From NCBI GenBank assembly GCA_030604405.1, contig JAUVVY010000002.1:1-64000 (forward strand): 64,000 nucleotides of DNA. Direction: 5' to 3'. The DNA comes from a bacterium (lineage in GTDB: Bacteria > Armatimonadota > Zipacnadia > Zipacnadales > UBA11051). How positions within the stretch are numbered: position 1 is the stretch's first letter; each line of letters opens with the position of its first letter. This document shows, piece by piece, positions 18,216 to 60,582 of the stretch. The notes under the pieces were generated by a model. It made no database searches. It was not told where the DNA came from and was given only the letters and a program-made list of their open reading frames with translations. A program made the position numbers and the translations under genes.

Positions 18216-18256
18216 AGCGACACGTCCTGGAGGCTGTCGTACATGCCACGGCATTC

Positions 18257-21274: not shown

Positions 21275-21361
21275 GCCGGAGTGGCGGAACTGGCAGACGC
21301 ATGGGACTTAAAATCCCAAGGGCTTCGGCCCGTCCCGGTTCGAGTCCGGGCTCCGGCACCA
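21275..21361 (+). tRNA. tRNA-Leu (anticodon TAA)
   Basis: 87 bases with an encoded CCA end. The acceptor GCCGGAG pairs with CTCCGGC. The D stem is GCG/CGC. The anticodon stem is TGGGA/TCCCA with loop CTTAAAA, giving anticodon TAA at 21309-21311. The long variable arm (GGGC-TTCG-GCCC) marks a class II Leu tRNA. The T stem CCCGG/CCGGG is perfect. Its 3' end (from 21315) is repeated at 23597-23643 and serves as the integration site of the island downstream. Confidence 0.97.
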
Positions 21362-21391
21362 ACCCATTCGAGAAGGTGAGGGAACAGAGTC

Positions 21392-22120: not shown

Positions 22121-22352
22121 GCCTTGTGGATCAGGGCTTGGTCACTGTGGCATTTCACACCCACAGATCACCCCTATGACACCAGCAAACTTCGACGCGC
22201 TCTGCGTACCAGCCCGCAGAGCGCTGCGTAGCCCTCCGGCACGATTGCACCCCTTGTACCGACCGGGGCTGCACGTGGGGAGGTCCAGATGCACTATCCG
22301 ACGAATGCTGCAAGCACTTGACGCACGAATCTCCGCACCGCGGAAAAGGGCG

Positions 22353-22910: not shown

Positions 22911-22920
22911 GTGATTGACA

Positions 22921-23499: not shown

Positions 23500-23596
23500 A
23501 GTCTCAGGAGCGGCTGCCGGAGCCCGGCGGGCGCGAAGAGTGTCAATCGAGCCGGAGTTTTCTCCCCCTCCCCTGACCGGGCTCCCGGTCTCTGTC

Positions 23597-23643
23597 CCCA
23601 AGTGCTTCGGCCCGTCCCGGTTCGAGTCCGGGCTCCGGCACCA
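23597..23643 (+). repeat. Attachment-site copy (tRNA-Leu 3' end)
   Basis: It matches 21315-21361 at 46 of 47 positions by eye, covering the variable arm, T arm, acceptor and CCA but not the 5' half of the tRNA. It therefore marks the right end of the TIR module. Confidence 0.85.
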
Positions 23644-23650
23644 TAAACGC

Positions 23651-23677
23651 AAGAGCCCCCGTATGACAGGGGCTCTT
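23651..23677 (+). terminator. Rho-independent-type terminator after the attachment repeat
   Basis: AAGAGCCCC pairs perfectly with GGGGCTCTT around a 9-base loop and is followed by TCT. It lies 8 bases beyond the attachment repeat. It may originally have terminated the tRNA-Leu transcript before the island entered. Confidence 0.8.
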
Positions 23678-23775
23678 TCTGAGTTCAGACTTGCCCCGAA
23701 GAGACGTTGCAGTTATGCCTCCGGGTGATACAAATCCAGAATGGTTTTGTGAGCAATGCGGATTCTTCGGTCAGG

Positions 23776-24519
23776 TCAATTGAGTGTCACCCAGTTTTCT
23801 ATGGTCCCAGGTGTGCCGAAGGTCTCTCCGGTACAGTTGAGCGGATCAGCATCACGTTCTGCCTGGGAGATGATCATCTGCTCTCGCGAAGTAACGCCGG
23901 CTGCTTGATATTCCTGAAATACCGCATCGGTCATCACTTCAAAGTAGGAGATGAGTTGCCAGGGGCAGGAAGGGTGGTTAGCGATTTCCACCTCGATAGC
24001 AATGTCTGAACACCCCAGATAGGCGTGTGTTCCCAGTTGCTGACCGGAGGTAACGTGGTCTCCTGGACTCACCCCGTCTGAGAGTGCGACGTGGAAAATA
24101 ATACAGGTGAAATCCGGGTAACCTGTCGGCCTGATGCGGATTTGACTGCCGCTGTCGCTCAACCCTTCCTGGTCGATCCTGGTGATGTCCCCTTCTACAG
24201 GTGAAAAGATCTCAATAGACAACGCCATGCCCTCCCTGGCCTGAAAGTAATGCTTCATACTTCGGCAGCTCTCGAAGCAGTCGGAGTAGTCATGCCCGAT
24301 ACCGGAGCGCAGCCTTGAGATTCGACTGATCTTCTCGAGTTCAATGTAGTTAGAATCTGCGAACCTGGGTATTCCCTGGCTCAGGTCCCAACCATCTCCG
24401 TCTTCTCCGTTTTCTCCGTTTTGTTCGTCTCCGCCCCCTCCGCTTCCGCAACCTGCGACTAACATCAGGGTAATGAGAAATGAGACTAAGCAGGCACTAT
24501 TGAGCAGGGATCTACGCAT
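23776..24519 (-). CDS. Lipoprotein with M23-peptidase-like fold
   Basis: 247 residues. The lipoprotein signal ends LMLVAGC (lipobox Cys24), followed by a Gly/Asp/Asn-rich tether. The body contains GIGHDYSDCFESCRSMKHYF, FSPVEGDITRI, HVALSDGVSPGDHVTSGQQLGTHAYLGCSDIAIEVEI. This follows the order of an M23 (LytM) domain, including the 'V-x-x-GD-x-V-x-x-GQ-x-LG' stretch. The usual final H-x-H is replaced by IEVEI, so the metalloprotease site may be incomplete. It is the only gene of module 2 and faces away from the tRNA-like copy upstream of it. Its first about 60 bases are duplicated in module 3. Confidence 0.7.
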   Translation of the reverse strand: MRRSLLNSACLVSFLITLMLVAGCGSGGGGDEQNGENGEDGDGWDLSQGIPRFADSNYIELEKISRISRLRSGIGHDYSDCFESCRSMKHYFQAREGMALSIEIFSPVEGDITRIDQEGLSDSGSQIRIRPTGYPDFTCIIFHVALSDGVSPGDHVTSGQQLGTHAYLGCSDIAIEVEIANHPSCPWQLISYFEVMTDAVFQEYQAAGVTSREQMIISQAERDADPLNCTGETFGTPGTIENWVTLN

Positions 24520-24540
24520 TGGGCTGCCTTTCTTGCTCCC

Positions 24541-24699
24541 GGCGAGAGATGCAACTAGTTGTATCTCAAGTCTATCATATCAGGAACGTTTGTCAACACA
24601 GAATAGGGCACTGCTGGAGTGGCGGAATTGGCACAGGCATGGGACCTAGAATCCCAAGGGCTTCGGCCCGTCGCGGTTCGAGTCCGGGCTCCGGCACCA
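24541..24699 (+). repeat. Long direct repeat, copy 1 (lipoprotein leader plus tRNA-like gene)
   Basis: Positions 24541-24699 align without gaps to 26462-26620 (constant offset 1921), with about five differences by eye. Similarity continues, more weakly and with gaps, into the first codons of the lipoprotein gene (to about 24400, versus about 26350). Confidence 0.9.
24613..24699 (+). tRNA. tRNA-Leu(TAG)-like gene, probably degenerate
   Basis: 87 bases, the same layout as the tRNA-Leu at 21275, with CCA. The acceptor GCTGGAG/CTCCGGC pairs with one G-U. The anticodon loop CCTAGAA gives TAG. However the D stem has a G-G mismatch (GCG/GGC) and the T stem has another (CGCGG/CCGGG). Function is doubtful; it may be a decaying tRNA carried by the element and used as an attachment site. 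Confidence 0.6.
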
Positions 24700-24713
24700 G
24701 ATGAGTAATCAAG

Positions 24714-24753
24714 AATGCCCGCAGCGGCCCCTCAGGGCCCGCTGCGGGCATAT
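24714..24753 (+). terminator. Long hairpin after the tRNA-like gene
   Basis: ATGCCCGCAGCGG pairs with CCGCTGCGGGCAT, a 13-bp stem around a CCCCTCAGGG-type loop that can itself pair. It lies 16 bases beyond the tRNA-like CCA. A terminator is likely; an attachment-site-associated recombination element is the alternative. Confidence 0.65.
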
Positions 24754-24879
24754 TGCTTCCCGGTGACGGGACGCCGATAAGACGCCACGGGGACGCCAGC
24801 AGACCGAATATGGGCGTGAACCGCAGGGGATTTTTCGTGAAGTCTCCGGTGGTTCACGACCTCTGAATCGGAGCCTGCT

Positions 24880-25809
24880 ATGCTCAACCTGAACACTCCG
24901 TCGGACGGCAGCATCACTATCAGTGAACTCGTGGCTGAGTACATCGACGACTGTCGCATCAGGAATCTCAGCCCCCAAACGATACTGTGGTATCGAACAC
25001 GCCTATCCCTATTCTTCGCCGATGTATGGGAAGATGAGTTGGCCTCAGTCACGGTGCGGCAGATGAGGGGGACGCTCCTGTCGATGCCGGAGTCACGGGA
25101 GGCGTCAACCGTCAACGGATACCTCAGGGCTGCGAAGGCGATGATGAATTACGCCATCGACAATGACTACGCAGTTGGGATCAACCCACGCCGTCTGAAG
25201 AAGATGAAGGAGCCAAGGAAGGTTCCGCCCTGCTTCTCGGTTGAGCAGGTGCAGGCGATGCTGAGACAACCCGATCTGTCAACCTTCATCGGCCTCAGGG
25301 ACCTAACGATGATGAGCGTTCTGTTGGACTGCGGTTTGCGGCTTAGCGAGTTGACTGGCCTGCTCGTGGCAGATGTGTGCATTCCCTATGCGACAGTGCG
25401 TGGGAAGGGCTCAAAGCAGAGGATCGTGGCGATGTCAGATGAGATGACCAAGCGGCTACGGAAATACCTGCGGGCGAGACAGCGGGTGGTAGCGAAGTCA
25501 AGAAGCGATGTGTCATTCCTGTTCCCGTCCCGCTACGGCAGGAGACTGAACAGCCGCACGGTGGATGGCATCTTGAAGAGATATGGTGGGATGGGAGGGG
25601 TCGAGGGGGTGCGGGTCTCCGCCCACACTTGGAGGTTCACATACACCACGCTGGCCCTTCGGGCCGGGATGTCCCTTACCTCCCTCCAGACTTGTCTCGG
25701 GCACGCCACGCTTGCGGTTACGAGGCATTATGCGGTTGTGAATGACACCGATGCGTTCAGCGATGCAAGGGCTTGCTCTCCGTTAGCGAATCTGCCGAAG
25801 CGTCGATAG
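24880..25809 (+). CDS. Tyrosine recombinase / integrase (XerC/D-like)
   Basis: 309 residues. The N-terminal SAM-like core-binding domain (about 10-95) reads ISELVAEYIDDCRIRNLSPQTILWYRTRL. The catalytic domain holds the full set: Arg in LLDCGLRLSELTGL, Lys in VRGKGSKQRIV, H-x-x-R in SAHTWRFT, His in LGHATLAVT and Tyr in RHYAVV. It therefore should be active in strand exchange. The gene follows the second tRNA-Leu-like copy and is the only integrase in the island, so it probably targets the tRNA-Leu 3' end. GGAGC lies 5 bases upstream of ATG. A hairpin at 25851-25870 separates it from the convergent RusA-like gene. Confidence 0.92.
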   Translation: MLNLNTPSDGSITISELVAEYIDDCRIRNLSPQTILWYRTRLSLFFADVWEDELASVTVRQMRGTLLSMPESREASTVNGYLRAAKAMMNYAIDNDYAVGINPRRLKKMKEPRKVPPCFSVEQVQAMLRQPDLSTFIGLRDLTMMSVLLDCGLRLSELTGLLVADVCIPYATVRGKGSKQRIVAMSDEMTKRLRKYLRARQRVVAKSRSDVSFLFPSRYGRRLNSRTVDGILKRYGGMGGVEGVRVSAHTWRFTYTTLALRAGMSLTSLQTCLGHATLAVTRHYAVVNDTDAFSDARACSPLANLPKRR

Positions 25810-41823: not shown

Positions 41824-42681
41824 TTAGGAGCTTTTCCGTAGCCATGCAGGCTGGAAATTGAGCGGCCGCCAGTCGCGCGGATAGCTGTATATCTTATACA
41901 TCAACTCAATGATATCGTCGGCCTCCATTTCGCGCGTATGGGCGTCAAGGACGGTGAATTCTCCGGGGTCCTCTTCGTCGAAGGTCGGCTCGACGCGCTC
42001 GTCCCGGAAGTGCACCGGGCTCTGCAGCTTGAAAGGCTCGATGTCATCAATGACTTTCATGGCCTGCTCGGCGGCGGCGCGTATTCTGTTGCAAGCCTCC
42101 TCGCGCGAGCAACTCAGCGCCGAGAGCCGGCTGGTGCCGTACTTGACCGGTGCCGTCACCACCCCGGGGATGAGGTCTTCGGCCTGCTTGCAGGCATGGG
42201 CATCGCCGGTGCACAGAGCAAACGGCACGCCGTAGTGACCGGCAATGGCCGCCTGCAGGCCCATTTCGCCCAGTGAGATGCCGTTGAATTGCCAGTCGCG
42301 AATGTCCAGACTCATGGTGTGATAGAGATTGGCGCCCTCGGTTCCGGCCTTGGCATGAGCGCCGACGAGGCCGGTAGCCGCGCATGTTTCATCCAGAAAC
42401 GGCAGCCAGAAGGGGCGCTGCTGGCCATGGATTATTACGGCACGCGGGTCGAGGTGGTCGAGGTCTATGGTATATCCAGCGCCATGACCGTCATTGACTA
42501 GCACCGCAGTTGCCCCGCCAGCGTAAAGGCCGTCCACGGCGGCACTGACTTCCTCTGCCAGCCATATCCTCTGGCGACACCGGCGCTCATGATTCTCCAG
42601 ACTGGTATCGGTGCTCCCGCTTTCCCACTGATATACTCCGGCAACGCCCTCGAGATCGGTCATCATATAGAACTTCATCAT
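41824..42681 (-). CDS. M55 family D-aminopeptidase (DppA-like), copy 1
   Basis: 285 residues, cytoplasmic. Metal ligands expected for M55 are all visible: Asp and Glu in MMTDLEGVAGVYQW, His in LVNDGHGAGYTIDL, His in GAHAKAGTEGANLYHTMS and Glu in NGISLGEMGLQAAIAGHYGVP. M55 enzymes release N-terminal D-amino acids, for example from wall-derived peptides. It differs from DppA in being a tandem pair with the next gene (42706-43551), which is very similar; the spacing is 24 bases. It is translated second on the minus strand. Confidence 0.9.
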   Translation of the reverse strand: MMKFYMMTDLEGVAGVYQWESGSTDTSLENHERRCRQRIWLAEEVSAAVDGLYAGGATAVLVNDGHGAGYTIDLDHLDPRAVIIHGQQRPFWLPFLDETCAATGLVGAHAKAGTEGANLYHTMSLDIRDWQFNGISLGEMGLQAAIAGHYGVPFALCTGDAHACKQAEDLIPGVVTAPVKYGTSRLSALSCSREEACNRIRAAAEQAMKVIDDIEPFKLQSPVHFRDERVEPTFDEEDPGEFTVLDAHTREMEADDIIELMYKIYSYPRDWRPLNFQPAWLRKSS

Positions 42682-42705
42682 CGTTCCTCCTGAGTAGCTG
42701 TGCAG

Positions 42706-43551
42706 TCAGTTCACCGGCCGATAGGTCTTCCATACAGGTGTGTAATCGGGGTCGAACCCGTACATCTTGTTCATGAAATCTACCATGTCCCCGGCCTCGA
42801 TTTCGAAGGTGTGAGTGTCTATCACTCGCTTATCTGGCGGCGGGTTGTCGGGGTCGAGGGTTGGTTCCACGAACTCACAACGGAAGACTATTGGCGGGTC
42901 GAGTTTGAGTGGCTCAATGTCGCCGATTCGCTTCATGGCTTCTTCAGCGCCCTGCCGGATCATTTCGCGGGATTTGAGCGGGTGCACGGTCTTGGCTGAG
43001 AGCCGGCTGAGGCCTTCCTTGACAGCGACCGTCACGCAGCCGGGTACCAGTTCCTCCATCTCCCTGCACGCATACGCGTCACCGGCGCAGAAGATGAAGG
43101 GGACGCCGAAATGACCGGCCAGGAAAGCCTGGTAGCCGGTCTCGCCGACGCTGATGCCATTGAGCGAGTAATTGCGTATGCTCGTGCCCATGGTGTGGTA
43201 CAGGTTGCCGGGCGGGGTCTCTGCCTTGGCGTGGGTACCAACACTGGCCAGGCCGGCGCAGGTCTCGTCCAGGCCGGTGCAGTAGTCGGGCCGCTGTCCG
43301 CCATGGAAGATACGCAAGCGCGAGTCCACCAGCGACATGTCTATCGTATAGCCCGGGCCGTGGCCGTCGTTGACCCACACGTCTGTCGCTCCCCCGCTGA
43401 AGAAACCGTCTGCGGCTGCGTTGACTTCCTGTGCCAGCCAGCGTCGCTGGCGAAGCCGGCGCTCCATGTTTTCGAGACTCTGATCCTCGCGATTCTCCCA
43501 CTGATAAACCCCGGCAACGCCTTCGAGGTCGGTCACTACGTATATCTTCAT
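42706..43551 (-). CDS. M55 family D-aminopeptidase (DppA-like), copy 2
   Basis: 281 residues. It has the same metal-site order as copy 1: TDLEGVAGVYQW, WVNDGHGPGYTIDM, GTHAKAETPPGNLYHTMG and NGISVGETGYQAFLAGHFGVP. Residues differ mainly in the segments that line the decamer channel in DppA, which might mean a different peptide preference (inference). It is first in the two-gene minus-strand unit. No signal peptide, so it acts on imported peptides. Confidence 0.9.
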   Translation of the reverse strand: MKIYVVTDLEGVAGVYQWENREDQSLENMERRLRQRRWLAQEVNAAADGFFSGGATDVWVNDGHGPGYTIDMSLVDSRLRIFHGGQRPDYCTGLDETCAGLASVGTHAKAETPPGNLYHTMGTSIRNYSLNGISVGETGYQAFLAGHFGVPFIFCAGDAYACREMEELVPGCVTVAVKEGLSRLSAKTVHPLKSREMIRQGAEEAMKRIGDIEPLKLDPPIVFRCEFVEPTLDPDNPPPDKRVIDTHTFEIEAGDMVDFMNKMYGFDPDYTPVWKTYRPVN

Positions 43552-48700: not shown

Positions 48701-49342
48701 TCACCTGAACATGCGGAACTTGCTGGGCTTCAGGTCGGCCCGCTCCAGTAGCTCTGCAGCGGACGAAAGCAGCTTCTCAAATGCTGCAGTGCGCGCTTCC
48801 GGGTCTGTAATCTGCTCGTCAACCATATATTGTTCCTGGCGTTGCAGGGCGCGGCGGGAGGGGTTGTTGGCAACCGCCCATACCGCCAATTGCGCCACGT
48901 TTATCTCATCATGTTCCGGGATCACAACAGCGCACAGTCTGGCCATGCGGTCGTCGGGACACGCTTCGGGAAACATCTCATCTTCTGGCGTCGGAGCGCG
49001 GCGGCTGATATTGGTGCAGGCGGTGGGGATGCGCAGGTGTACCACGGCGTTCTTCGACAGGTCTACCGGCACCCAGCCCAGCGTACTCTGGCCTTGCCGG
49101 CCGCCCCGCTGTGCCCAGAACTGCGTCCCGGGAGCGATGGCAACGAATTTTGGCCCGCCCGGATTGCGGCCGATGGTGGCATCCACGCCGAGGTCGCCGG
49201 TACCGTAGAACTCGGCCCAGATTGTGCCCTCGTCGAGAGCCTGCAGCAGGTCGGCGGTGGCCGCCACACCCAGACTCGGACAAATCGTCACTAACAGAGC
49301 GATGATACCGATCCCAATATAGATTCGCGCCGGCTCTTGCAT
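48701..49342 (-). CDS. Secreted protein, paralogue of the gene at 49565-50176
   Basis: 213 residues from ATG 49342, preceded by AGGAGG; a longer frame to 49426 lacks a signal. The signal peptide (IGIGIIALLVTICPSLGVAA) leads into TADLLQALDEGTIWAEFYGTGDLGVDATIGR, a domain with STLGWVPVDLSKNAVVHLRIPTACTNISR and a conserved pair CPDDRMARLCAVV...VAQLAVWAVANNP. The C-terminus is SKFRMFR. I do not recognise the family. The same motifs occur in the upstream gene, so the two are duplicates. Two conserved Cys (one either side of DDRMxRL) may bond. Confidence 0.7.
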   Translation of the reverse strand: MQEPARIYIGIGIIALLVTICPSLGVAATADLLQALDEGTIWAEFYGTGDLGVDATIGRNPGGPKFVAIAPGTQFWAQRGGRQGQSTLGWVPVDLSKNAVVHLRIPTACTNISRRAPTPEDEMFPEACPDDRMARLCAVVIPEHDEINVAQLAVWAVANNPSRRALQRQEQYMVDEQITDPEARTAAFEKLLSSAAELLERADLKPSKFRMFR

Positions 49343-49564
49343 CCGTACTACCTCCTGGCAGTCGTACCTGCGTTGCCCCTTAGTATTCTGTGTTTGCACA
49401 CAGACCTCCTGCCAATAATGCCTCACAGCAATCCCCGTGGCTCCGGCAGTCTGCTGAGCCTGCGGTTTGCGTTGAGGCTGATTGTCGGTTAGCGCAAATG
49501 TTGAATCCCGAAATCAGAGAGCTGACCGCCACAAGCCTACGTGGTGGCCGAGGTGATGTGGAGG

Positions 49565-50176
49565 CTAGAGTGTGTGCAGCATAGGGCTGACATGCCTCTT
49601 GAACATGCGGAAGCTGTTGGGGTCGAGGCCGGCTCGCCGCAGAAGCAGCTTGGTTTTGGCCATGTCGCTGCGACCTCGCATCTGGCGTTGTGGAGGGTTG
49701 TTGGCAATCGCCCAGACGGCCAACTGTATAGCATCATGATCGTCTCTTGCGGGGTTCACCGTCGCACACAGTTTGAACATGCGCTCGTCCCGACACGGCC
49801 GGGCGTACAAGACGTCCTGGTAATTAGCGGCCGGCAGGTTGATGTCCATACAGGCGGTTTTTAGCTGTACACGGGCCACGCCGTGTCTGCCCAGATTGAT
49901 CGGCACCCATCCCAGCGTAGTCTGCGGCTGCACCCTGCGTGCCGTTGGGGCAAAATACGTGCCTGGTGAGATCGTCACGTGGGTCGGCCCGTAGAGAGTG
50001 CGGCGTATCGTGACGTCCACCGCCGAGCCTCCGGCGCCCCGGAATTCTGCTTCGATCCTGCCATCACGCAGAGCCTGCAACAGATCAACGGTAACTGCCG
50101 CAGTAGCAGTCACCAAACAACTCACCAGCAAACCCACCATCATAACTGTAAGCAAGACCCGCCGTGTCACTGCCAT
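49565..50176 (-). CDS. Secreted protein, paralogue of the gene at 48701-49342
   Basis: 203 residues from ATG 50176, with AGGAGGAGG upstream. Signal peptide (VLLTVMMVGLLVSCLVTATAA), then VDLLQALRDGRIEAEFRGAGGSAVDVTIRR, TTLGWVPINLGRHGVARVQLKTACMDINL and CRDERMFKLCATVNPARDDHDAIQLAVWAIANNP; end NSFRMFKRHVSPMLHTL. These align throughout with its neighbour. The 222-base gap between them holds no gene. The 'QLAVWAIANNP' helix is a feature of a family of secreted proteins of unknown role. Confidence 0.7.
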   Translation of the reverse strand: MAVTRRVLLTVMMVGLLVSCLVTATAAVTVDLLQALRDGRIEAEFRGAGGSAVDVTIRRTLYGPTHVTISPGTYFAPTARRVQPQTTLGWVPINLGRHGVARVQLKTACMDINLPAANYQDVLYARPCRDERMFKLCATVNPARDDHDAIQLAVWAIANNPPQRQMRGRSDMAKTKLLLRRAGLDPNSFRMFKRHVSPMLHTL

Positions 50177-50564
50177 GGCAGTGCCTCCTCCTGGTAATGG
50201 TGCCTCAATTGACCTATCTTTCCCTATCGCTATTAGTATTATACCCAATTTCCTTCATAGATATTCCAGTTCCGCGACCGATTTCCCTGCAATCGTCATC
50301 CAGCGGGATTGCCCTGGCAACGCCTCGAAATCATTAGAGGCAATGTCCTGGAGTCAACCGGGTGCTTCGCTGGGCACCCCGCTGATGCGGCACCAGGTGA
50401 TGCCTTGAGAAGCGTCTGCTGCACGTACAGCATCTTGGTCGTGGGGCGGCATCAACAATTTGAAGGTAAAATAATCGCGGGGCGGAAGGTTACTGGCACA
50501 AATTGTTGGAAATAGCAGTCAGCATAAATGCTTGGGGACAATTCCCCCAATAGGAGTGAAGGAG
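50177..50564. other. Divergent intergenic region (388 bases)
   Basis: It separates the minus-strand secreted protein from the aminotransferase array. A minus-strand -10 TATAAT is present at 50243-50238, 62 bases from the ATG at 50176, without a clear -35. For the plus strand only weak elements are visible (TTGTTG at 50503-50508 with TAAATG at 50525-50530). No open frame or RNA structure is convincing. Confidence 0.5.
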
Positions 50565-51884
50565 ATGTCAGAAGCAACAAAACTAGCCATTAAGGGCGGT
50601 CCCAAGTCCGTCACGAAAGACCCAGGCGACATGTTCACCTGGCCGATTATCACCCAGGAGGACGAAGACGCGGTACTTGAAGTGCTGCGGCGTGGGGCAA
50701 TGTCGGGGACGGACGTAACGATGGAATTCGAGAAAGACTATGCCGAATGGCATGGGGTGGACTACGCGCTCGGCGTCAGTACCGGCACCGCGGGGCTGCA
50801 GTCGGCGATGTGGGCGTGCGGCGTCGGCGTCGGCGACGAGATCATCGGACCCAGCCTCACTTACTGGGCAACCAACCTGCCCGCTTTCAGCCTGCAGGCG
50901 ACGATCGTATTCGCCGAGGTTGACCCCGAAACGCTGTGCCTCGACCCCAATGACATCGAACACCGCATCACCGAGCGCACCAAGGCGATCGTTCCGGTTC
51001 ACTACTGTGGCTACCCGGCGGACATGGACCCGATCATGGAGATCGCCGAGAAGCACAATGTCAAGGTAATCGAGGACGTTTCCCACGCCCACGGTGCGCT
51101 GTACAAGGGAAAGATCGTGGGGACCATCGGCCACATCGCAGCCTTCTCGGTCATGTCGGGCAAAGCGCTGGCCGTAGGCGAAGGCGGCATGATTGTGACC
51201 AACGACCGCAAACTCTGGGAGCGGTGCATCGTGTGGGGGCACTACGAGCGGACGGCGGCGACCCGCTGGACCGGGGAGCTGGAAGAGAAGTACGTCACCG
51301 ACCCCGAGCTGACACCGTTTGTGGGGCTGCCCTGGGGCGGATACAAGTATCGGATGCACCAGCTTTCCTCCGCGTGCGGTCGCGTACAGCTCAAGTACTA
51401 TAGAGAGCGCATGGAAGAGGTCCAGAAGGCGATGAACTACTTCTGGGATCTGTTGGAGGATGTGCCGGGTGTCAAGGCCCACAGGCCAGCGAAGGACTCA
51501 GGCAGCACCATGGGCGGCTGGTACGCGGCCCGCGGTCTGTATAGGCCCGAAGAGCTGGATGGTTTGGACATCGGCGTGTTCTGCAAAGCCGTGACCGCCG
51601 AAGGCTGCAGCACCGGTCCGGGTATCAACAGCCCGATGCACCTGCACCCGCTGCTCAACGACGCGGACATCTACGGCCATGGCAAGCCGACGCGGATTGC
51701 CAATTCCGACCGCGATCTGCGCCAGCCAGAAGGCAGTCTGCCGGTGACCGAAGCCATGCCACGGGCCTGCTACGGCATCCCGTGGTTCAAGCACTACCGG
51801 CCCGAGGTCATCGAAGAATATGCCATGGCGTTCAAGAAAGTTGCCGAGAACGCCGACCAGCTCGCAGATATTGAGCCGGAGTAA
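50565..51884 (+). CDS. DegT/DnrJ/EryC1 aminotransferase, tandem copy 1
   Basis: 439 residues from ATG 50565, with AGGAG 8 bases upstream. PLP-fold features: LGVSTGTAGLQSAMWACGVGVGDEIIGPSLTYWATNLPAF, AIVPVHYCGYPADMDPIMEIA, VIEDVSHAHGALYKG (Asp for the PLP nitrogen), and FSVMSGKALAVGEGGMIV with the Schiff-base Lys in SGK. The end has PLVLND-type LHPLLNDADIYGHGKPTRIANSDRDLRQPEGSLPVTE. Family members transfer an amino group to keto-sugars or inososes (StsC-like). The N-terminal LAIKGGPKSV and length of about 440 place it in the inosose/AHBA-type group. First of four copies. Confidence 0.9.
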   Translation: MSEATKLAIKGGPKSVTKDPGDMFTWPIITQEDEDAVLEVLRRGAMSGTDVTMEFEKDYAEWHGVDYALGVSTGTAGLQSAMWACGVGVGDEIIGPSLTYWATNLPAFSLQATIVFAEVDPETLCLDPNDIEHRITERTKAIVPVHYCGYPADMDPIMEIAEKHNVKVIEDVSHAHGALYKGKIVGTIGHIAAFSVMSGKALAVGEGGMIVTNDRKLWERCIVWGHYERTAATRWTGELEEKYVTDPELTPFVGLPWGGYKYRMHQLSSACGRVQLKYYRERMEEVQKAMNYFWDLLEDVPGVKAHRPAKDSGSTMGGWYAARGLYRPEELDGLDIGVFCKAVTAEGCSTGPGINSPMHLHPLLNDADIYGHGKPTRIANSDRDLRQPEGSLPVTEAMPRACYGIPWFKHYRPEVIEEYAMAFKKVAENADQLADIEPE

Positions 51885-51903
51885 CGCGGCGGGCGATGCA
51901 GAA

Positions 51904-53208
51904 ATGACCGCAAGGGACAAGCTCGCCATAAACGGCGGCTCGAAGGCCGTCCGGACTGCCCCGGGCGACATCTTCACCTGGCCGATCATCACAAAAGAGG
52001 ACGAAGACGCCGTACTCGAAGTGCTGCGCCGTGGTGGCATGTCGGGGACCGATGTCACCGTCGAGCTTGAGCGGGAGTTCGCCGACTGGCACGGGATGCA
52101 GTATGCGCTTGGACACAGTACCGGCACCGCCGCTTTGCAAGCAGCAATGTGGGGAATAGGGCTGGGGGTCGGTGACGAACTCATCGCCCCCAGCATGACT
52201 TATTGGGCCTCAGCACTGCCCGCCTTCAGCCTCCAGGCCACGGTGGTCTTCGCCGAGGTCGAAGCCGATACTCTGTGCCTGGATCCCGATGACATCGAGC
52301 GCCATATCACCGATCGGACCAGGGCGATAATGGTCACACATCTGCGCGGCTACCCGGCGCCGATGGATCGGATCGTGCCGGTGGCGCGCAAGCATGACCT
52401 CAAGATCATCGAGGACTTCTCGCAAGCGCAGGGCTCGCACCACAAGGGCCAACTCGTAGGCACGTTTGGCGATGTCGGGGCATGTTCGCTGATGTCGGGC
52501 AAGTCGCTGGCGGCCGGCGAGGCCGGGATGCTGATTACCAATGACCGGCGGATCTGGGAGCGTGCCATCGTCTGGGGCCATCGCGAGCGCACCGCCGCTA
52601 CCCGCTGGACTGGAGAATTGCAGGAGAAATACATCACCGACCCGGAACTGGTGCCTTATGCCGGCTATCCCTGGGGCGGTTACAAGTACAGGACGCATCA
52701 GCTTTCCTCGGCTGTCGGCAGAGTCCAGCTTAAGTATTACGGCGAGCGTATGGCCGACATTGACAAAGCCATGACCTACTTCTGGAACCTGCTCGAAGAG
52801 ATTCCGGGCATCCGCGCGCACCGTCCTCCAAGAGATGAAGGCAGCGATATGGGCGGCTGGTTCGGAGCCCGTGGCCTCTACGTGGCGGAGGAACTGGGCG
52901 GAGCCTCCGTGGACAGGTTCTGCGAGGCCGTCAGGGCCGAGGGAGTTCAGGCGGCAGCACCGCACAGGCGGCCAATGCTGCACCTGCACCCGCTTTTTAA
53001 TGAGGCGGATATCTACGGGCACGGCAAGCCCACGCGTATCGCTAATTCCGACCGCGATATGCGCCAGCCCGAGGGCAGCCTGCCCGTAACAGAAGGGCTG
53101 TATGACCGCGTGCTGGGGGTGCCGTGGTTTAAGCACTTCGATAAGACCATCATCGAAGAGCACGCGCTGGCGTTTTACAAAGTTGCCGAGAACTCCGACC
53201 AGCTCTGA
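51904..53208 (+). CDS. DegT/DnrJ/EryC1 aminotransferase, tandem copy 2
   Basis: 434 residues from ATG 51904. The start lies 20 bases after the previous stop and has no strong Shine-Dalgarno sequence, so coupling is likely. It is the most divergent copy: the strand before the cofactor Asp reads MVTHLRGYPAPMDRIVPVARKHDLKIIEDFSQAQGSHHKG in place of VPVH-CGYPADMDPI-EIAEKH. The Lys motif is SLMSGKSLAAGEAGM. The C-terminal IYGHGKPTRIANSDRDMRQPEGSLPVTEG is kept. The changes sit in the sugar/cofactor pocket region, so the substrate may differ (inference). Catalytic residues are retained. Confidence 0.9.
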   Translation: MTARDKLAINGGSKAVRTAPGDIFTWPIITKEDEDAVLEVLRRGGMSGTDVTVELEREFADWHGMQYALGHSTGTAALQAAMWGIGLGVGDELIAPSMTYWASALPAFSLQATVVFAEVEADTLCLDPDDIERHITDRTRAIMVTHLRGYPAPMDRIVPVARKHDLKIIEDFSQAQGSHHKGQLVGTFGDVGACSLMSGKSLAAGEAGMLITNDRRIWERAIVWGHRERTAATRWTGELQEKYITDPELVPYAGYPWGGYKYRTHQLSSAVGRVQLKYYGERMADIDKAMTYFWNLLEEIPGIRAHRPPRDEGSDMGGWFGARGLYVAEELGGASVDRFCEAVRAEGVQAAAPHRRPMLHLHPLFNEADIYGHGKPTRIANSDRDMRQPEGSLPVTEGLYDRVLGVPWFKHFDKTIIEEHALAFYKVAENSDQL

Positions 53209-53246
53209 CGCACAGAGTTGAGAGTGTCATCTGAGGAGCGATACTA

Positions 53247-54545
53247 ATGGCAGAGACTACGCAGCTTGCCATACTTGGCGGCCCTAAGGCTGTCAGCCTC
53301 GATCAGCGCGGCATCACCGGCTGGCCGATCATCACCGACGAGGACGAAGAAGCCGTGCTCGAGGTGCTCAGGCGTGGCGCGATGTCGGGTACGGATGTTA
53401 CCAGGGAATTCGAAGACGACATCGCACAGTGGCATGGCGTGAAGTACGCGCTGGGCCATAGCAGCGGCACTGCTGCTCTGCAAGCGGCGATGTGGGCTTG
53501 TGGCGTCGGCATAGGCGATGAGATCATCGCGCCTTCCTACACGTACTGGGCCTCCGCCTTGCCCGTCTTCAGCCTCCAGGGCACGATTGTCTTTGCCGAC
53601 ATCCATCCTGACAACCTGACCATAGATCCCGCCGACATCGAGCACCGTGTCACAGAGCGGACCAAGGCCATCGTTCCCGTACACATGGGTGGCTACCCCT
53701 GCGACATGGACCCGATCATGGAGATAGCCGAGAAGTATGATATCAAGGTCATCGAGGACGTATCCGTCGCCCAGGGCGGCCTGTACAAGGGCAGGCTGCT
53801 GGGGACGATCGGGCATGTCGGGGCCTTCTCCATCATGTCGGGCAAGGCGCTGGCTACCGGGGAGGCCGGCATGCTCATCACCAACGACCGCTACATCTAC
53901 GAGAAAGCCACCGTATGGGGACACTATGCGCGCACCACCACCACGCGCTGGTCCGGTGAGACCGGCGAGCAGACGATCACTGCTCCCGACCTGACACCGT
54001 TCGTGGGGCTGCCGTGGGGTGGCTGCAAATACCGCATGCACCAGTTGTCATCGGCGGTAGGGCGCGTGCAGCTTAAGTACTTCAAGCAGCGCCTGGGGGA
54101 GATGCGGGAGGCCATGAGCTACTTCTGGGATCTGCTGGAGGGCTGCGGTGGCTTACAGGTGAGCAGGCCCGCCAAGGCTTCGGGAAGCGTGATGGGTGGA
54201 TGCTGCGGTCCGGGTGGCATATACAAAGCTGACGAGCTGGGCGGCCTGCCGATCCAGAGGTTCTGCGAGGCAGTCGCAGCAGAGGGCTCGGCATCCGGCA
54301 CCTGGAGTGAGCCCCTGCACTTGCATCCATTGTTGAACGATGCCGATATCTACGGGCACGGCAAACCGACGCGCAACGCCAACTCCGACCGCGATCTGCG
54401 CCAGCCGGTGGGAAGTCTGCCGGTTACTGAATCGGCCGGTGAGCGTGTTTTCGGCAGCCCCTGGTTCAAGCACTACTGGCCGGAGATCATCGAGGAGCAC
54501 GCGGCCGCATTCCGCAAAGTCGCCGAAAACGCCGATCGACTCTGA
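53247..54545 (+). CDS. DegT/DnrJ/EryC1 aminotransferase, tandem copy 3
   Basis: 432 residues from ATG 53247, preceded by GAGGAG. Cofactor motifs: VIEDVSVAQGGLYKG (Asp) and FSIMSGKALATGEAGMLI (Lys). It lacks the YxAxRG of copies 1 and 4 and has VMGGCCGPGGIYKADELGG instead. Its tail has IYGHGKPTRNANSDRDLRQPVGSLPVTE. It is closest to copy 4, with which it shares the start LAILGGPKAVxLDQxGITGWPI and the upstream leader sequence. Confidence 0.9.
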   Translation: MAETTQLAILGGPKAVSLDQRGITGWPIITDEDEEAVLEVLRRGAMSGTDVTREFEDDIAQWHGVKYALGHSSGTAALQAAMWACGVGIGDEIIAPSYTYWASALPVFSLQGTIVFADIHPDNLTIDPADIEHRVTERTKAIVPVHMGGYPCDMDPIMEIAEKYDIKVIEDVSVAQGGLYKGRLLGTIGHVGAFSIMSGKALATGEAGMLITNDRYIYEKATVWGHYARTTTTRWSGETGEQTITAPDLTPFVGLPWGGCKYRMHQLSSAVGRVQLKYFKQRLGEMREAMSYFWDLLEGCGGLQVSRPAKASGSVMGGCCGPGGIYKADELGGLPIQRFCEAVAAEGSASGTWSEPLHLHPLLNDADIYGHGKPTRNANSDRDLRQPVGSLPVTESAGERVFGSPWFKHYWPEIIEEHAAAFRKVAENADRL

Positions 54546-54583
54546 CGCAGAGAGTTGAGAGTGTCACCAGAGGAGCGATACTG

Positions 54584-55888
54584 ATGGGAGAAGGTTCGAA
54601 GCTTGCTATACTTGGCGGCCCGAAAGCCGTTACGCTGGACCAGAAGGGCATCACTGGCTGGCCGATCGTCACCGAGGAGGACGAGGAGGCCGTGCTTGAA
54701 GTGCTCCGACGCGGTGCGATGTCGGGCAGAGATGTCACGATGCAGTTTGAACAAGAGTATGCGGACTGGCACGGTACGAAATATGCTCTGGGCCACAGCA
54801 GTGGCACGGCGGCTCTGCAGGCGGCGATGTGGGCCTGTGGGGTCGGTGTGGGCGATGAGATTATCAGCCCAAGCCTGACTTATTGGGCGTCGGCGCTGCC
54901 GGTATTCGGCCTGCAGGGCACCGTAGTGTTCGCCGATGTGCATCCCGACACCCTCACCATTGACCCCGGAGATATCGAACACCGCATCACTCAGCGCACC
55001 AAGGCGATTGTCCCGGTACACCTGGGCGGACACCCGGCCGACATGGACCCGATAATGGACATCGCCGAGAAACATGACATCAAGGTGATCGAGGATGTCT
55101 CTCACGCCCATGGGGCTCTGTACAAGGGGCGGCTGGTTGGCGCAATTGGTCATGTCGCATGTTTCTCCATTATGTCGGGCAAGGCGCTGGCGACCGGCGA
55201 AGGCGGGATGCTGACAACAAGCGACAGGTATATCTGGGAGAAGGCTACCGCGTGGGGGCACTACGGCCGCACCAGAGCCACCCAGTGGACCGGCGAATTG
55301 GAGGAGCAGATCATCACCGCGCCCGACCTGACGCCCTTCGTGGGAATGCCCTGGGGTGGTTACAAGTACCGGATGCATCAGCTTACCTCTGCAATGGGCA
55401 GAGTGCAACTCAAGCACTACAAAGAGCGCATGGCAGAGATCCAGCAGGCCATGAATTACTTCTGGGATCTGCTCGAGGGCGTGCCTGGTTTGCAGGCTCA
55501 CAGACCGCCGCAGAATTCTGGCAGTACGATGGGCGGCTGGTACGCCCCACGCGGGATTTATAATTCGGAAAAGCTTGGCGGCCTGCACCTCCACAGATTC
55601 GCCGAAGCTGTGGCTGCCGAAGGTGCCACTTGCGGCGCAGGCAGCCGCCGCAGGCTGCACCTGCACCCGCTGTTCAATGAGGCGGATATCTACGGACACG
55701 GCAAACCGACGCGGATTGCCAATTCCGACCGCGACCTGCGCCAGCCGGAGGGCAGCCTGCCGGTCACCGAGGCAGAAGGCGACCGGGTCTATAACATCCC
55801 GTGGTTCAAGCACTACTGGCCAAAGATTATCGAGGAACACGCAGCAGCCTACAGGAAGGTGGCCGAGAACGCCGACCAGCTTCTGTAG
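54584..55888 (+). CDS. DegT/DnrJ/EryC1 aminotransferase, tandem copy 4
   Basis: 434 residues from ATG 54584, preceded by AGAGGAG. Motifs: VIEDVSHAHGALYKG and FSIMSGKALATGEGGMLT. It combines features of copy 1 (STMGGWYAPRGIYNSEKL) and copy 3 (LAILGGPKAVTLDQKGITGWPI). The 35 bases before this ATG are nearly the same as those before copy 3, so gene and leader were duplicated together. A terminator closes the array at 55921-55951. Confidence 0.9.
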   Translation: MGEGSKLAILGGPKAVTLDQKGITGWPIVTEEDEEAVLEVLRRGAMSGRDVTMQFEQEYADWHGTKYALGHSSGTAALQAAMWACGVGVGDEIISPSLTYWASALPVFGLQGTVVFADVHPDTLTIDPGDIEHRITQRTKAIVPVHLGGHPADMDPIMDIAEKHDIKVIEDVSHAHGALYKGRLVGAIGHVACFSIMSGKALATGEGGMLTTSDRYIWEKATAWGHYGRTRATQWTGELEEQIITAPDLTPFVGMPWGGYKYRMHQLTSAMGRVQLKHYKERMAEIQQAMNYFWDLLEGVPGLQAHRPPQNSGSTMGGWYAPRGIYNSEKLGGLHLHRFAEAVAAEGATCGAGSRRRLHLHPLFNEADIYGHGKPTRIANSDRDLRQPEGSLPVTEAEGDRVYNIPWFKHYWPKIIEEHAAAYRKVAENADQLL

Positions 55889-55920
55889 CGTGTCGCGTGC
55901 ATCGCAGCCTGAGAGAAAAC

Positions 55921-55951
55921 AAGCGGCGGGGGCAACTGGCCCTCGCCGCTT
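55921..55951 (+). terminator. Terminator of the aminotransferase array
   Basis: AAGCGGCGGGGGC (55921-55933) pairs with the segment ending CGCCGCTT (55939-55951) in a 13-bp stem with one mismatch and a 5-base loop. A moderately T-rich stretch (TGGTCTTGTG) follows. It also lies ahead of the convergent gene ending at 55979. Confidence 0.75.
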
Positions 55952-55978
55952 GGTCTTGTGTCCTCACGAATTGCCCGC

Positions 55979-56416
55979 TCATGGAGTGGGTGGTTTGGGG
56001 TTTACCGTGACGATCGCATGTGGCGACTCCTTGCCGTCCGCCGTCACTGTGTATGTGTGGATTTCGTAGCGAAGCGGGCGCTGTTCCCAGAAGAACGCTC
56101 GCGGGGTGGATATCAATAGTGCGAAAGTTCCATCAGGGTTGACCTTGTGACGGTGGCCTGGGATCGTTCTGTAGTATTTGCTGCCATCCAGCGTATCATA
56201 GATCTGGGTTTGGATCACAACAAGCGATCCGAGCGCAGCCGCGCCGACGACCAGAGTACTGGGGCCGATGAGGTCGCCTTTCTGGGGACTTTTGACGATT
56301 GGCGCCTCGCCCTTGGCAGGCAGCTTAGTTGTCGGTTGACTGGTCTGGGCCGCACATACGGCGGCTAACATAGCCAGTGCAATGCAGGTGGCCAGCACAA
56401 TAGAATGTGTTCTCAC
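55979..56416 (-). CDS. Secreted Ig-like-domain protein
   Basis: 145 residues, GTG start with GAGGAGG upstream. A signal peptide (IVLATCIALAMLAAVCAA) precedes a linker, then a single beta-sandwich (about 45-145): SPQKGDLIGPSTLVVGAAALGSLVVIQTQIYDTLDG...GHRHKVNPDGTFALLISTP...LRYEIHTYTVTADGKESPHAIVTV. The domain repeats in the next gene upstream (56493). It is the last gene of the VWA cluster on the minus strand. No enzymatic motif; an adhesion or surface-display role is possible. Confidence 0.7.
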   Translation of the reverse strand: MRTHSIVLATCIALAMLAAVCAAQTSQPTTKLPAKGEAPIVKSPQKGDLIGPSTLVVGAAALGSLVVIQTQIYDTLDGSKYYRTIPGHRHKVNPDGTFALLISTPRAFFWEQRPLRYEIHTYTVTADGKESPHAIVTVNPKPPTP

Positions 56417-56492
56417 GTTTGGTGTCCTCCTCTCTAAAGACTTCAGGTGTCAATAATTCCACAGTGCGACGTTTGAGTTGCCCGGACGCAAC

Positions 56493-57143
56493 TTAAGGTG
56501 TCGGCGATCTCTGCTGCACGGTGATGATGGCGTGCGGTGACTTGCCGCCATCGCGCGTGACAGTGAAGACATGGATCTCGTAGCGCAGTGGGCGCTTCTC
56601 GCCAAACGATATCAGGGGGGTGGCGATCAGCAGTTCGAAACTGCCGTCCGGCTTGGGCGCATGGCGATGGCCGGGGACCATCTTAATGAACTGGCCGTCG
56701 AGCTGGTCATAGACCTCCGTCTGGATTACGACAACCGAGTTCGGCTGGGCCCTGCCGATGACCAGGGTGCTTGGCCCGACCTGTTCACCGTTGCTGGGGC
56801 TAGCGACCTGCGGCATGTCCCCATAGGCGGAAGTCTGGCCTGTCGCTGCGCCGGCCATTGCCGCGGTGAGTTGGCCGCTGTCGGCGGCCGCGAAGTACGC
56901 CCCGCCGCCAATCTGGGAGATTTCTTGCAGATACCTTTCGGCTTCCGAGCCCGCGGTCAAATCAAACCCAACAGTGTTGATGCTGAGCCTCATCGAGCTG
57001 TTGCTGACTGCCTGCTGCGCCTCCTGGAGGGCCTGCTCAACCGTCTCGCCCTCGGTGGTCAGGTCTATGATTTCGGCCGCGCAGACCGCAGTGATCAAAA
57101 GCAGTGCGAGAAATGAGATCAGAAATCGTGTTGGCACTCTCAT
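56493..57143 (-). CDS. Secreted protein with the C-terminal half of a VWA domain plus Ig-like domain
   Basis: 216 residues from ATG 57143 (GGAGG upstream). After the signal peptide the mature part opens at what is strand 4 of a VWA fold: IIDLTTEGETVEQALQEAQQAVSNSSMRLSINTVGFDLTAGSEAERYLQEISQIGGGAYFAAADSGQLTAAM. This corresponds to the 'LTDGE...INTIGF...GGxYFxA' end of VWA domains; the DxSxS metal site is absent. An Ig-like domain like that at 55979-56416 follows. The two upstream VWA proteins lack exactly this end. It may complement them or be a remnant. Confidence 0.7.
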   Translation of the reverse strand: MRVPTRFLISFLALLLITAVCAAEIIDLTTEGETVEQALQEAQQAVSNSSMRLSINTVGFDLTAGSEAERYLQEISQIGGGAYFAAADSGQLTAAMAGAATGQTSAYGDMPQVASPSNGEQVGPSTLVIGRAQPNSVVVIQTEVYDQLDGQFIKMVPGHRHAPKPDGSFELLIATPLISFGEKRPLRYEIHVFTVTRDGGKSPHAIITVQQRSPTP

Positions 57144-57222
57144 AGTTGCTGTCAACCTCCACACACTTGTTGTTCGTTTACGATCGACCTCAAACCGAGC
57201 GGCGTGCCTCAGTGGCAGTCGC

Positions 57223-59055
57223 TCATTGGCGGCCTCTCATTTGCGCCTCCTGCACCTGCTGGAACATCCTATGCAGGCTGGCGCTGGCCTCCTCCTGCCT
57301 GATGCCACCGTGTTGAGGGCAGTTATCCTGGCCATCGCACAGGATGATGAGCCGGCCCTTTTTCCCCTGGCCTTTGGTAGTCAGGTAAGTGAGGGCCTTG
57401 TACTTTGAGTAGGTGAGCGGCGTGTCACCTCCGGCGCTAAGTCTGTCCGCGGCGCTCTTGAGCTCCTCCGCGTCCATGGTGAAGTCGCAGTGGACTTTGA
57501 CGCTGCAAGCACCGTAAGCCACCAGGCACCACTCGGTCTTGCCGTCATCGGTCTGGTCCACGGCGGTCTTGACGGCTGCCTTGGCTGCGTCCAGCTTGCT
57601 GCCCCCCATACTGCCGCTGCAGTCCACCAGGAAAAGGAGGGACAACTCCGGCTGCTTGCCAACCTTTCCCGTCCATTTCGCCTCCACCACCATATCCTGG
57701 TTCGGCCATCCATATAGTTTCTTGGTGCGCTTGTCGGCAAATGCGAGCCGCAGGTCCACTTCGTAGGGCCCCGGCTTGCTGGCGTCAAAGGGGAACTTGA
57801 TGTAGGCTGTCCCCGCCTTGCCTTTGTTCCAGCTTTCCGCCTGGGCAATCACGCCGGTGCTGGTCTGACCGGCCTGAGCCAATTGGGGCCGAACGAGGAT
57901 GATCGGCGCCCACTTGCCGTCGGCGGGCCAGTTCGCCAGTTCGTTGCCGTCTTTGTCGCGCACCTCAAGAAAGCTGAGCATAGACTCAATGGTAGGGTTC
58001 CCCGGCCACGCTTTGGTAGTGTCGAAAGTGCTGCCGATGAGGCCGCCGGTGTCCAGGTCTCTCTCCGGCTGGATGACCAGATGTGCTGGATTCGCGGCCC
58101 AGTCGTTGAAAAACCCCACTGAATCCGAGATGGCGCGTGAGATTGCCCTATCCCACTGCTGACAGAACAGCTTGAAAAGACGAAAATCGTTGACCGTGTA
58201 GTTAACCACAAGACGCCCCGTGGTCTCGCCGGCGTTGCGGTCTGGGAGCTCCAACTGCACATCATCGATGAGCAGCGGCTTCATCAGTAAGTCGTACTCC
58301 TGCCGCGTCGGCGGCGTCCCCTTCAATACACGGCTGAAAACTGCCCCCCGCCACGCGCTCTGATTGTGAACGTTCACAAACCACTGAGTGCATTGTCCCA
58401 TCAGCACGGCGGATTTCGTCAGGTCGGTGGTGAACGCCACCGGGGTCAATTGGGTTGGTCGCCAGTATACGGGGTTACTCGGGAAAGTTTCCCGAAAGGC
58501 CGCGCAGATCAGGTTTGCCGGCACAGCTCCAGACCTGACGACATAGCGCTCAAGATTGGAGGCCTTGCGCAGGACGTGTTCACACTCCACCAGTTCCAGG
58601 CGCTTATGGCGGACCTCAAAGTCGTGCCCCCCGCCAAAGTACCCGCCGAATTCGTTTACCAGCGGGTGTATCACACAGTCGGTGCAATAGTGCGTCAACC
58701 ATCCCAGAGCGAAGGCGGTGCCGGCGTCGCGACGCGACGAGAACCACGACGCCTGCGCCTGCTTCAGCATGTTCGTGATGAGTTGGCCAGTGCGTTCATA
58801 GTGAGCCTCTGTGCCAGGATGTCCCAGTCCAAAGGCTTCCGCTACCAGATACGTGGTCAGAGCAATGTCGGGTCCGGTCGTCCCGGCCAGGTAGGCATCC
58901 ATATTGGCATTGCAGATGTCCTTCACTGACTGCGGCGCTTGATCCAACGCCCGCAGAGCCACGTATACGTGCCCGGGGGCCTGGCTGGCCTGGCCTGCGC
59001 TCACTACCATCGTAGCGATCACGATGACCATGACCGGAAGCAGAAACCTGTTCAT
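57223..59055 (-). CDS. Secreted zinc-phospholipase C-like protein fused to a VWA domain
   Basis: About 610 residues from ATG 59055 (GGAGGAG upstream). Signal peptide, then a domain like Zn-dependent phospholipase C/S1-P1 nuclease (about 30-180): GHVYVALRAL, NMDAYLAGTTGPDIALT, HYERTGQLITNM, TAFALGWLTHYCTDCVIHPLVNEFGG. The HYCTD..IHP stretch supplies the expected His/Asp zinc ligands. A middle part is unassigned. The VWA domain (470-610) has the MIDAS motif DCSGS at 478-482 and the Thr in GGDTPLTYS, but stops soon after LIILCDGQDN. Upstream is a second VWA protein. Membrane lipid or surface binding is possible. Confidence 0.75.
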   Translation of the reverse strand: MNRFLLPVMVIVIATMVVSAGQASQAPGHVYVALRALDQAPQSVKDICNANMDAYLAGTTGPDIALTTYLVAEAFGLGHPGTEAHYERTGQLITNMLKQAQASWFSSRRDAGTAFALGWLTHYCTDCVIHPLVNEFGGYFGGGHDFEVRHKRLELVECEHVLRKASNLERYVVRSGAVPANLICAAFRETFPSNPVYWRPTQLTPVAFTTDLTKSAVLMGQCTQWFVNVHNQSAWRGAVFSRVLKGTPPTRQEYDLLMKPLLIDDVQLELPDRNAGETTGRLVVNYTVNDFRLFKLFCQQWDRAISRAISDSVGFFNDWAANPAHLVIQPERDLDTGGLIGSTFDTTKAWPGNPTIESMLSFLEVRDKDGNELANWPADGKWAPIILVRPQLAQAGQTSTGVIAQAESWNKGKAGTAYIKFPFDASKPGPYEVDLRLAFADKRTKKLYGWPNQDMVVEAKWTGKVGKQPELSLLFLVDCSGSMGGSKLDAAKAAVKTAVDQTDDGKTEWCLVAYGACSVKVHCDFTMDAEELKSAADRLSAGGDTPLTYSKYKALTYLTTKGQGKKGRLIILCDGQDNCPQHGGIRQEEASASLHRMFQQVQEAQMRGRQ

Positions 59056-59196
59056 TCGATCTCCTCCGACGCGAGTTGTGCCCCTCTTTAGCACCAAATA
59101 CACCCGGTACAGTCTCTTCGACATTCTGCTCGCATTGCGACGGACTCGGGGTGGCGCTTGGGGCGCTGTGTTCCAGCTATGAGACGTGCGCCCTGG

Positions 59197-60582
59197 TCAT
59201 GGCTGCTGAACGGGCGCAGCCAGATTCTGGGTGCTGATGATACTGCGCAGGCCGGCCGCGGCTTCAGTGCGGCCACCGCCCTGACGCGTTTGAGAATTGT
59301 TCTCACCATCGCAAAGCACGATCAGCCGCCCGGTCTTGCCGTGACCGTTCTTGACCAGGTAAGCTGTGGCCTTGTATATCGAGTAGGTAAGCGGCGTGTC
59401 GCCGTTTGCGTTAAGACTGGCGGCCGCCGCCTGAACCGCCGCTGCATCGCTAGTGAATGCCACCACCTGCCAACATGTGGAGGCGCCTCCGAAGCCCATC
59501 AACGCCCATTCGGTCTTGCCGTCGTTGCTCTGATTCACCGAGTTGATTACGGCCTGCTTGGCTGCCTCGATCTTGGATCCGCCCATGCTTCCGCTGCAGT
59601 CAACCAGGAACAGGATCGAGAGCTCGACATTGCCGACTTGCGTCGGCTGCTGAGGCTGCGTCGGCTGCTGAGGCTGCGTGGGTGGCTGGGCTGGTTCGCC
59701 GGCCGGTATCTGGGCCCACATGGCGCGTTGATCTGCGATCTCCTGGGTGAGGGTAGCTCTGGCTAGATCGAGCTGCTGGTTGATGAGGTTGGTCTGTTCT
59801 GCCGGCGACAGCGACTTGTTGGCTGCGCTCTTACCCAGGTCAACGATATTGCTCACGACAGTGGCAATGGCGTCACTGACGTAATTCGCCCCGTGGGTAG
59901 CAAAGCCCGTGCAGTAATCGGCAATTATGCCAATAAGACCGGCGGAGAGGCCTTTCGCGGCGATCTCGGTCTTCTTCAGTTCGAGGACGGCGATCATCTG
60001 CCCAAGCTTTTCCACGGCTGCGGCGCCTTCGTTGATTTTGGTGATGTCTTCGGGCTTCAGCTTGTTCGTGTTTTGTGCGACGAACTGGTCTTTGTCATCC
60101 AGAAATTGAAAGACCTCTGGGGGCGTGTGTGTGCGCTGGGCGTTCTTGCTCACCTCGTCCCAGCCGTCAACGCCGTTCTGGTATTGGACAATACGTTCTG
60201 TCAGTTCAGGTCCCCAGTCAGCGGGCCTATTCTGCGAATACCCAAGCATGCCACCCATCGAGGTGCTGCCGTAAACCTCGTTCATCTGGGCGCGCTGCGC
60301 CGCGGGCATTTTCTCCCACAGGTACATTTTCTGCATCTGGGTCAAGTCCTTGACGAAGACATCGTGGTCGGCCCACTTTACCATCATCTTCTGGCTATAG
60401 CCGCCGATCCACCAGCCTTCGAGGTGGAAGTTAATCTCGCCGCTGAGCATCCACGCCTCGATTCCTGGGTATGTGGGTATGTCATCGGGAGCCGCCCCGA
60501 TAGTAGCAGCGGGCTGGGAGAATACTACGGCGGGGAGAAGCAGGCTCAGTACGGCAACAAGAACCAAGATCCGCTCGCTCAC
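59197..60582 (-). CDS. Secreted von Willebrand A-domain protein
   Basis: 461 residues, GTG start. Signal peptide (ILVLVAVLSLLLPAVVFSQ), then a helical domain of about 290 residues with no clear relatives, a Pro/Gln/Thr-rich hinge (TQPQQP repeats) and a VWA domain from about 316: SILFLVDCSGSMGGSKIEAAKQAV with DCSGS of the MIDAS, WALMGFGGASTCWQ, and NANGDTPLTYSIYKATAYL. It stops soon after LIVLCDGENNS, like the neighbour's VWA. It is the first gene of the minus-strand cluster. VWA domains bind protein ligands through a metal. Confidence 0.8.
   Translation of the reverse strand: MSERILVLVAVLSLLLPAVVFSQPAATIGAAPDDIPTYPGIEAWMLSGEINFHLEGWWIGGYSQKMMVKWADHDVFVKDLTQMQKMYLWEKMPAAQRAQMNEVYGSTSMGGMLGYSQNRPADWGPELTERIVQYQNGVDGWDEVSKNAQRTHTPPEVFQFLDDKDQFVAQNTNKLKPEDITKINEGAAAVEKLGQMIAVLELKKTEIAAKGLSAGLIGIIADYCTGFATHGANYVSDAIATVVSNIVDLGKSAANKSLSPAEQTNLINQQLDLARATLTQEIADQRAMWAQIPAGEPAQPPTQPQQPTQPQQPTQVGNVELSILFLVDCSGSMGGSKIEAAKQAVINSVNQSNDGKTEWALMGFGGASTCWQVVAFTSDAAAVQAAAASLNANGDTPLTYSIYKATAYLVKNGHGKTGRLIVLCDGENNSQTRQGGGRTEAAAGLRSIISTQNLAAPVQQP

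Follow-up and report, generated by a model that had tools for sequence, protein, structure and literature searches.

Four tandem paralogues of an uncharacterised DegT/DnrJ/EryC1 aminotransferase subfamily in a Zipacnadia-type Armatimonadota genome

Why would a bacterium keep four similar DegT/DnrJ/EryC1 aminotransferases side by side, and would the four copies still carry out the same reaction? We addressed this question for four complete open reading frames lying head to tail on the plus strand at positions 50565-55888 of the window, that is, the whole 64,000-nucleotide stretch of DNA that was analysed. The window belongs to a Candidatus Zipacnadia-type Armatimonadota MAG of 4.37 Mb (G000); congeneric genomes are labelled G001 to G004. 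The features of the array are as follows.

50565-51884, plus strand: copy 1, DegT-family aminotransferase with the PLP lysine Lys200, Asp171 and His174
51904-53208, plus strand: copy 2, paralogue with a changed pocket (H174Q, Y180H, Y227R, Y320F); orthologues in G001 and G002
53209-53246, plus strand: spacer between copies 2 and 3, near-identical to the next spacer, with a good Shine-Dalgarno sequence (GAGGAG) inside
53247-54545, plus strand: copy 3, paralogue with H174V, W319C and Y320C; orthologue not seen elsewhere
54546-54583, plus strand: spacer between copies 3 and 4, a duplicate of the preceding spacer
54584-55888, plus strand: copy 4, active site near-standard, sister to copy 3; G001 orthologue (91%)
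55920-55952, plus strand: strong terminator-like hairpin 3' of copy 4, 14 pairs of which 11 are G-C

The encoded proteins have 432-439 residues each. Full-length identities are 67% between copies 1 and 2, 69% between 1 and 3, 72% between 1 and 4, 63% between 2 and 3, 66% between 2 and 4, and 76% between 3 and 4. The preliminary description, made from the sequence of the locus, had proposed four full-length, mutually similar enzymes in tandem with copies 3 and 4 closest to each other; both statements hold, the last pair being the highest of the six. It had also named an assembly artefact as an outcome that would overturn the array. This outcome could be ruled out, because 24-37% of residues differ between copies and congeners carry a separate orthologue for each of several copies. 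Since the stop-to-start gaps are short (19, 38 and 38 nt), the hairpin after copy 4 is the only strong one of its kind in the array, and the genes flanking the array on both sides lie on the minus strand, the array is likely to be one transcription unit. The duplication that produced copies 3 and 4 seems to have left its trace in the two near-identical spacers.

All four copies match the PF01041 profile with E-values from 4e-68 to 1e-78, scoring 230-265 bits against a curated cut-off of 19.8. The NCBIfam equivalog cut-offs for ArnB, PseC and WecE were not reached by any copy: the scores are at most 179 bits, whereas these cut-offs stand at 375 bits or higher (631 for ArnB and 423.5 for PseC). 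The PLP lysine (K200) and the pyridine-nitrogen aspartate (D171), noted earlier as intact, are present in the four copies and in all 83 homologues, and D171, K200, E206, K261 and R263 are invariant across the four copies.

The pockets are less uniform. We counted changes at 87 near-invariant sites, each at least 95% conserved. Copy 1 has no change at these sites, copy 4 has one, copy 3 has five, and copy 2 has seven; the 74 comparable homologues have 1.5 changes on average and six at most. Residue 174 would be the family's His or Gln contact to the PLP O3'; three of the four copies have one of these two residues there, copies 1 and 4 a His and copy 2 a Gln, whereas copy 3 has Val. In Spr1654, the cofactor is held by Asp170 and Lys199, and His173 bonds its O3' (PMC5936713); our alignment maps D171, K200 and H174 onto these three residues, respectively. 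Residues W319 and Y320 are presumably near the cofactor, judging from the family motif. Copy 2 carries the signature H174Q, Y227R and Y320F, kept in G001 and G002 as H174Q, Y227R/K and Y320F. Its segment of residues 121-190 is only 47-57% identical to the other copies, which, together with its seven changes, agrees with the earlier remark that copy 2 is distinct around the pocket. Copies 2 and 3 are thus both altered at sites with at least 95% conservation among 83 homologues, copy 3 through H174V, W319C and Y320C.

Such losses could suggest that the array holds one functional enzyme and decaying paralogues, the second outcome that the preliminary description had named as a refutation. The three substitutions of copy 3, its long terminal branch in the maximum-likelihood tree (0.217), and a frameshifted copy-4-like gene in G003, which an assembly error may also explain, would fit decay. 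However, all four copies are full length without stops, the catalytic Lys and Asp are intact, and pairwise NG86 estimates of dN/dS are low. Measured against their G001 orthologues, copies 1, 2 and 4 give dN/dS values of 0.054, 0.163 and 0.127, respectively. Copy 3, having no orthologue from which its own branch could be measured, was compared with copy 4 (0.088), and a three-point estimate gives about 0.1 for its branch. The dS values between copies are near saturation (1.25-1.78), so the between-copy dN/dS is rough. All four copies are kept by purifying selection, with dN/dS of 0.09-0.16 for copies 2-4 and 0.05-0.16 for the array as a whole, and we consider decay very unlikely.

How did the copies arise? 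Looking for the same array in relatives, as had been suggested, gave a graded picture within the genus. The syntenic site of G004 holds a single copy, and G002 has copies 1 and 2 plus a fragment. In G001, copies 1 and 2 lie close to the end of one contig and copy 4 is on a different one; copy 3 was not seen in G001, where about 900 nt of unrelated sequence stand at both contig ends. A gene resembling copy 4 lies at the end of a G003 contig (L140:7927-9117); its frameshift near residue 322 would mean a pseudogene or else an error of assembly. Copy 2 of G001 is directly followed by a copy 1 tail (L060:11249-11287) before the contig runs into unrelated sequence, a sign that array copies recombined at least once in this congener.

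In the maximum-likelihood tree, genes of G001, G002 and G004 cluster with copy 1 (support 90-99). Copy 2 has its closest relatives in G001 and G002 (bootstrap 100), copies 3 and 4 pair with each other (100), and a G001 gene joins copy 4 (99). Copy 1 is the slowly evolving orthologue of genes that other bacteria have once, and copies 2, 3 and 4 are tandem duplicates. An older duplication followed by losses, instead of a genus-level event, could also be conceived because copies 2 and 3/4 fall outside the clade formed by copy 1 and family f5, at a deep position that is poorly resolved (42).

The surroundings of the array point to the same kind of process. Four more adjacent paralogue pairs lie within a 19-kb stretch (41.8-60.6 kb), at 41824-43551, 48701-50248, 55979-57164 and 57223-60582; they comprise M55 D-aminopeptidases (56% identical), two pairs without a Pfam match (38% and 58%), and VWA proteins (55%). 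On this basis, the locus seems prone to tandem duplication. Tandem duplicates being common here, and four tightly spaced copies probably sharing a transcription unit, one might regard the array as a matter of pure gene dosage, in which four copies of one activity raise the enzyme level; the nearly standard pockets of copies 1 and 4 would agree with this. The copies are, however, only 63-76% identical with saturated dS, and the pocket changes of copy 2 are kept in two congeners, which would not be expected if dosage alone were selected. We therefore regard dosage as an improbable explanation.

Another possibility is that the products form mixed dimers or tetramers, with copy 2 or 3 as the modified partner of a catalytic copy 1 or 4. 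In one DegT enzyme, both subunits contribute residues to an active site at their dimer interface (PMC5936713), and copy 3 is under purifying selection despite the loss of three near-invariant residues. There is also a precedent in a Serratia sp. ATCC 39006 PDB entry (8y96) titled "heterooligomeric aminotransferase". This protein shares the fold at 25-26% identity, and it is the entry title that makes it a precedent for DegT hetero-oligomers. Against mixed assemblies, no array copy is an obvious dead subunit because all of them keep K200, D171, E206, K261 and R263; moreover, copy 4 of G001 lies on a different contig from copies 1 and 2, and many genomes have a single copy only. Mixed assemblies of this kind seem unlikely to us.

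We asked how exceptional the array is. In G000, PF01041 has 29 matches, of which 26 are strong, and the array copies form one clade with their homologues, from which the genome's 22 other DegT proteins of full length are separate. The homologues are mostly 45-83% identical and come from Armatimonadota, Latescibacterota, Poribacteria, Clostridia, Lentisphaerota, Omnitrophota and others. The parent subfamily of the array is thus widespread but uncharacterised. Counted at E ≤ 1e-110, it is present in 57 of 291 Armatimonadota genomes, nearly always as a single copy. Among these 291 genomes, a second copy outside the genus, where present, lies on a different contig, no tandem was found outside the genus, and four in tandem occur in G000 only. 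Our literature search found nothing relevant on DegT arrays, and the main text of the Zipacnadia paper (PMC10290634) mentions neither aminotransferases nor DegT. As a separate observation, two goat-gut Oscillospiraceae (L110:2426-6774 and L120:7635-11958) have tandem triplets of this subfamily that arose independently, with three matching paralogues in permuted order (A-B-C versus C-A-B); five near-invariant sites are changed in paralogue A.

What might the substrate be? The genes around the array encode an ABC transporter and unrelated proteins that are either secreted or of unknown kind, and no dehydratase, epimerase, cyclitol synthase or glycosyltransferase adjoins it. Ten PF16363-type matches of G000 lie on other contigs, and the genome has 78 Gfo/Idh/MocA matches above the cut-off. 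Single-copy orthologues in the same order mostly stand alone too. Of the earlier claim that an array without sugar-biosynthesis genes is unusual, the absence is confirmed, but the word "unusual" is weakly founded, as the subfamily normally stands alone in Armatimonadota.

The structural comparison places the enzymes only broadly. The AlphaFold2 model of copy 1 (pLDDT 95.5) has the fold-type-I aminotransferase fold, with Z-scores above 40 to DegT structures. The best match is Fic25, which works in ficellomycin biosynthesis (Z 44.7, 408 residues). GDP-perosamine synthase and QdtB are among the matches tied with it, followed by BtrR, AHBA synthase and ArnB. Fic25 of Streptomyces ficellus (8gyh, 8gyi, 8gyj) is the closest solved structure and matches over the full length, sharing the N-terminal SKLAxxGG and the protein length with the array copies; the identity is only 33%, however, and the segment of about residues 355-400 aligns poorly. 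Nucleotide-sugar aminotransferases such as ArnB, PseC, Spr1654 and GDP-perosamine synthase share the fold and the PLP site. By our inferred mapping, the donor-binding Lys of ArnB and Spr1654 would correspond to Lys261 of the array copies, whereas the donor-binding His196 of Spr1654 would be replaced by Met197.

The 2-deoxy-scyllo-inosose aminotransferases BtrR and RbmB (2c7t, 5w71, 5w70) share the DegT fold, the PLP Lys and Asp, and a similar length; AHBA synthase (1b9h) is 25% identical to copy 1 by structure alignment only. These resemblances in length and fold might suggest a role in amino-cyclitol or amino-sugar natural product biosynthesis, like StsC/BtrR or AHBA synthase. Yet the identity to BtrR and RbmB is 28-29%, the Asn of the BtrR xNYxx motif stands opposite Lys261 in the array copies, and genes of the DOI pathway are missing from the array, as are adjoining genes for cyclitol synthase, dehydratase or glycosyltransferase. 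The sole PF01761 (DHQ-synthase type) protein of G000 is encoded on another contig. We judge such a role to be quite improbable, and amino-sugar or amino-inositol diversity arising from the array, as first proposed, is a guess.

Neighbours of the subfamily in other genomes offer a different hint. An Amidohydro_2 gene directly adjoins the subfamily gene in 18 of 140 slots, compared with 15 of 576 for other genes (p 5e-6, a guide only, since slots within one lineage are not independent). Amidohydro_2 includes sugar lactonases, and together with this adjacency a role of the subfamily on oxidised sugar-type compounds would be plausible. The array locus itself has no Amidohydro_2 neighbour. A Gfo/Idh/MocA operon partner was also considered and rejected, its adjacency not being above background (8/140 versus 22/576, p 0.35). 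In several phyla (L105, L107, L109, L130, L134), we noticed the subfamily gene paired with a second, distant DegT gene (about 31-38% identical), with Amidohydro_2 beside some of the pairs.

With moderate confidence, we favour a local, genus-level tandem amplification with diverged substrate use of the copies. One gene of this fold-type-I PLP subfamily would have been amplified in tandem within the genus, copy 1 remaining the conserved enzyme and copies 2-4 being duplicates retained under purifying selection. All four would be made from one mRNA and act as dimeric transaminases. Glutamate or glutamine would exchange an amino group with the keto group of a compound derived from a sugar or polyol; this compound may lack a nucleotide link, although nucleotide sugars are also conceivable. 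Copies 2-4 might use related yet different substrates or stereoisomers, and altered or reduced catalysis would be likeliest in copy 3. The genus might thereby have widened a single transamination step instead of building a whole sugar pathway. It is doubtful, though conceivable, that the four paralogues instead form a mixed oligomer or a graded transaminase set encoded as one unit, with rewired PLP O3' and pocket contacts in copies 2 and 3, and that tandem diversification is recurrent in the subfamily, happening again independently in gut Oscillospiraceae. The array is not categorically new. Its interest lies in a DegT subfamily about 60% identical across many uncultured phyla that matches none of the characterised equivalog models; one to four copies within one genus make a natural series for substrate change in a PLP transaminase, and the pocket changes (positions 174, 227, 319 and 320) lend themselves to direct testing.

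Elsewhere in the window, a TIR-domain protein (22915-23499) is encoded between two tRNA-Leu genes, and a tyrosine-recombinase-like integrase, recognised by eye, lies at 24880-25809 just past the second tRNA-Leu; the region 21275-25809 is possibly a small mobile or defence island. At 16795-19351, a tandem trio encodes prepilin-like proteins of the H-X9-DG type that are 26-49% identical.
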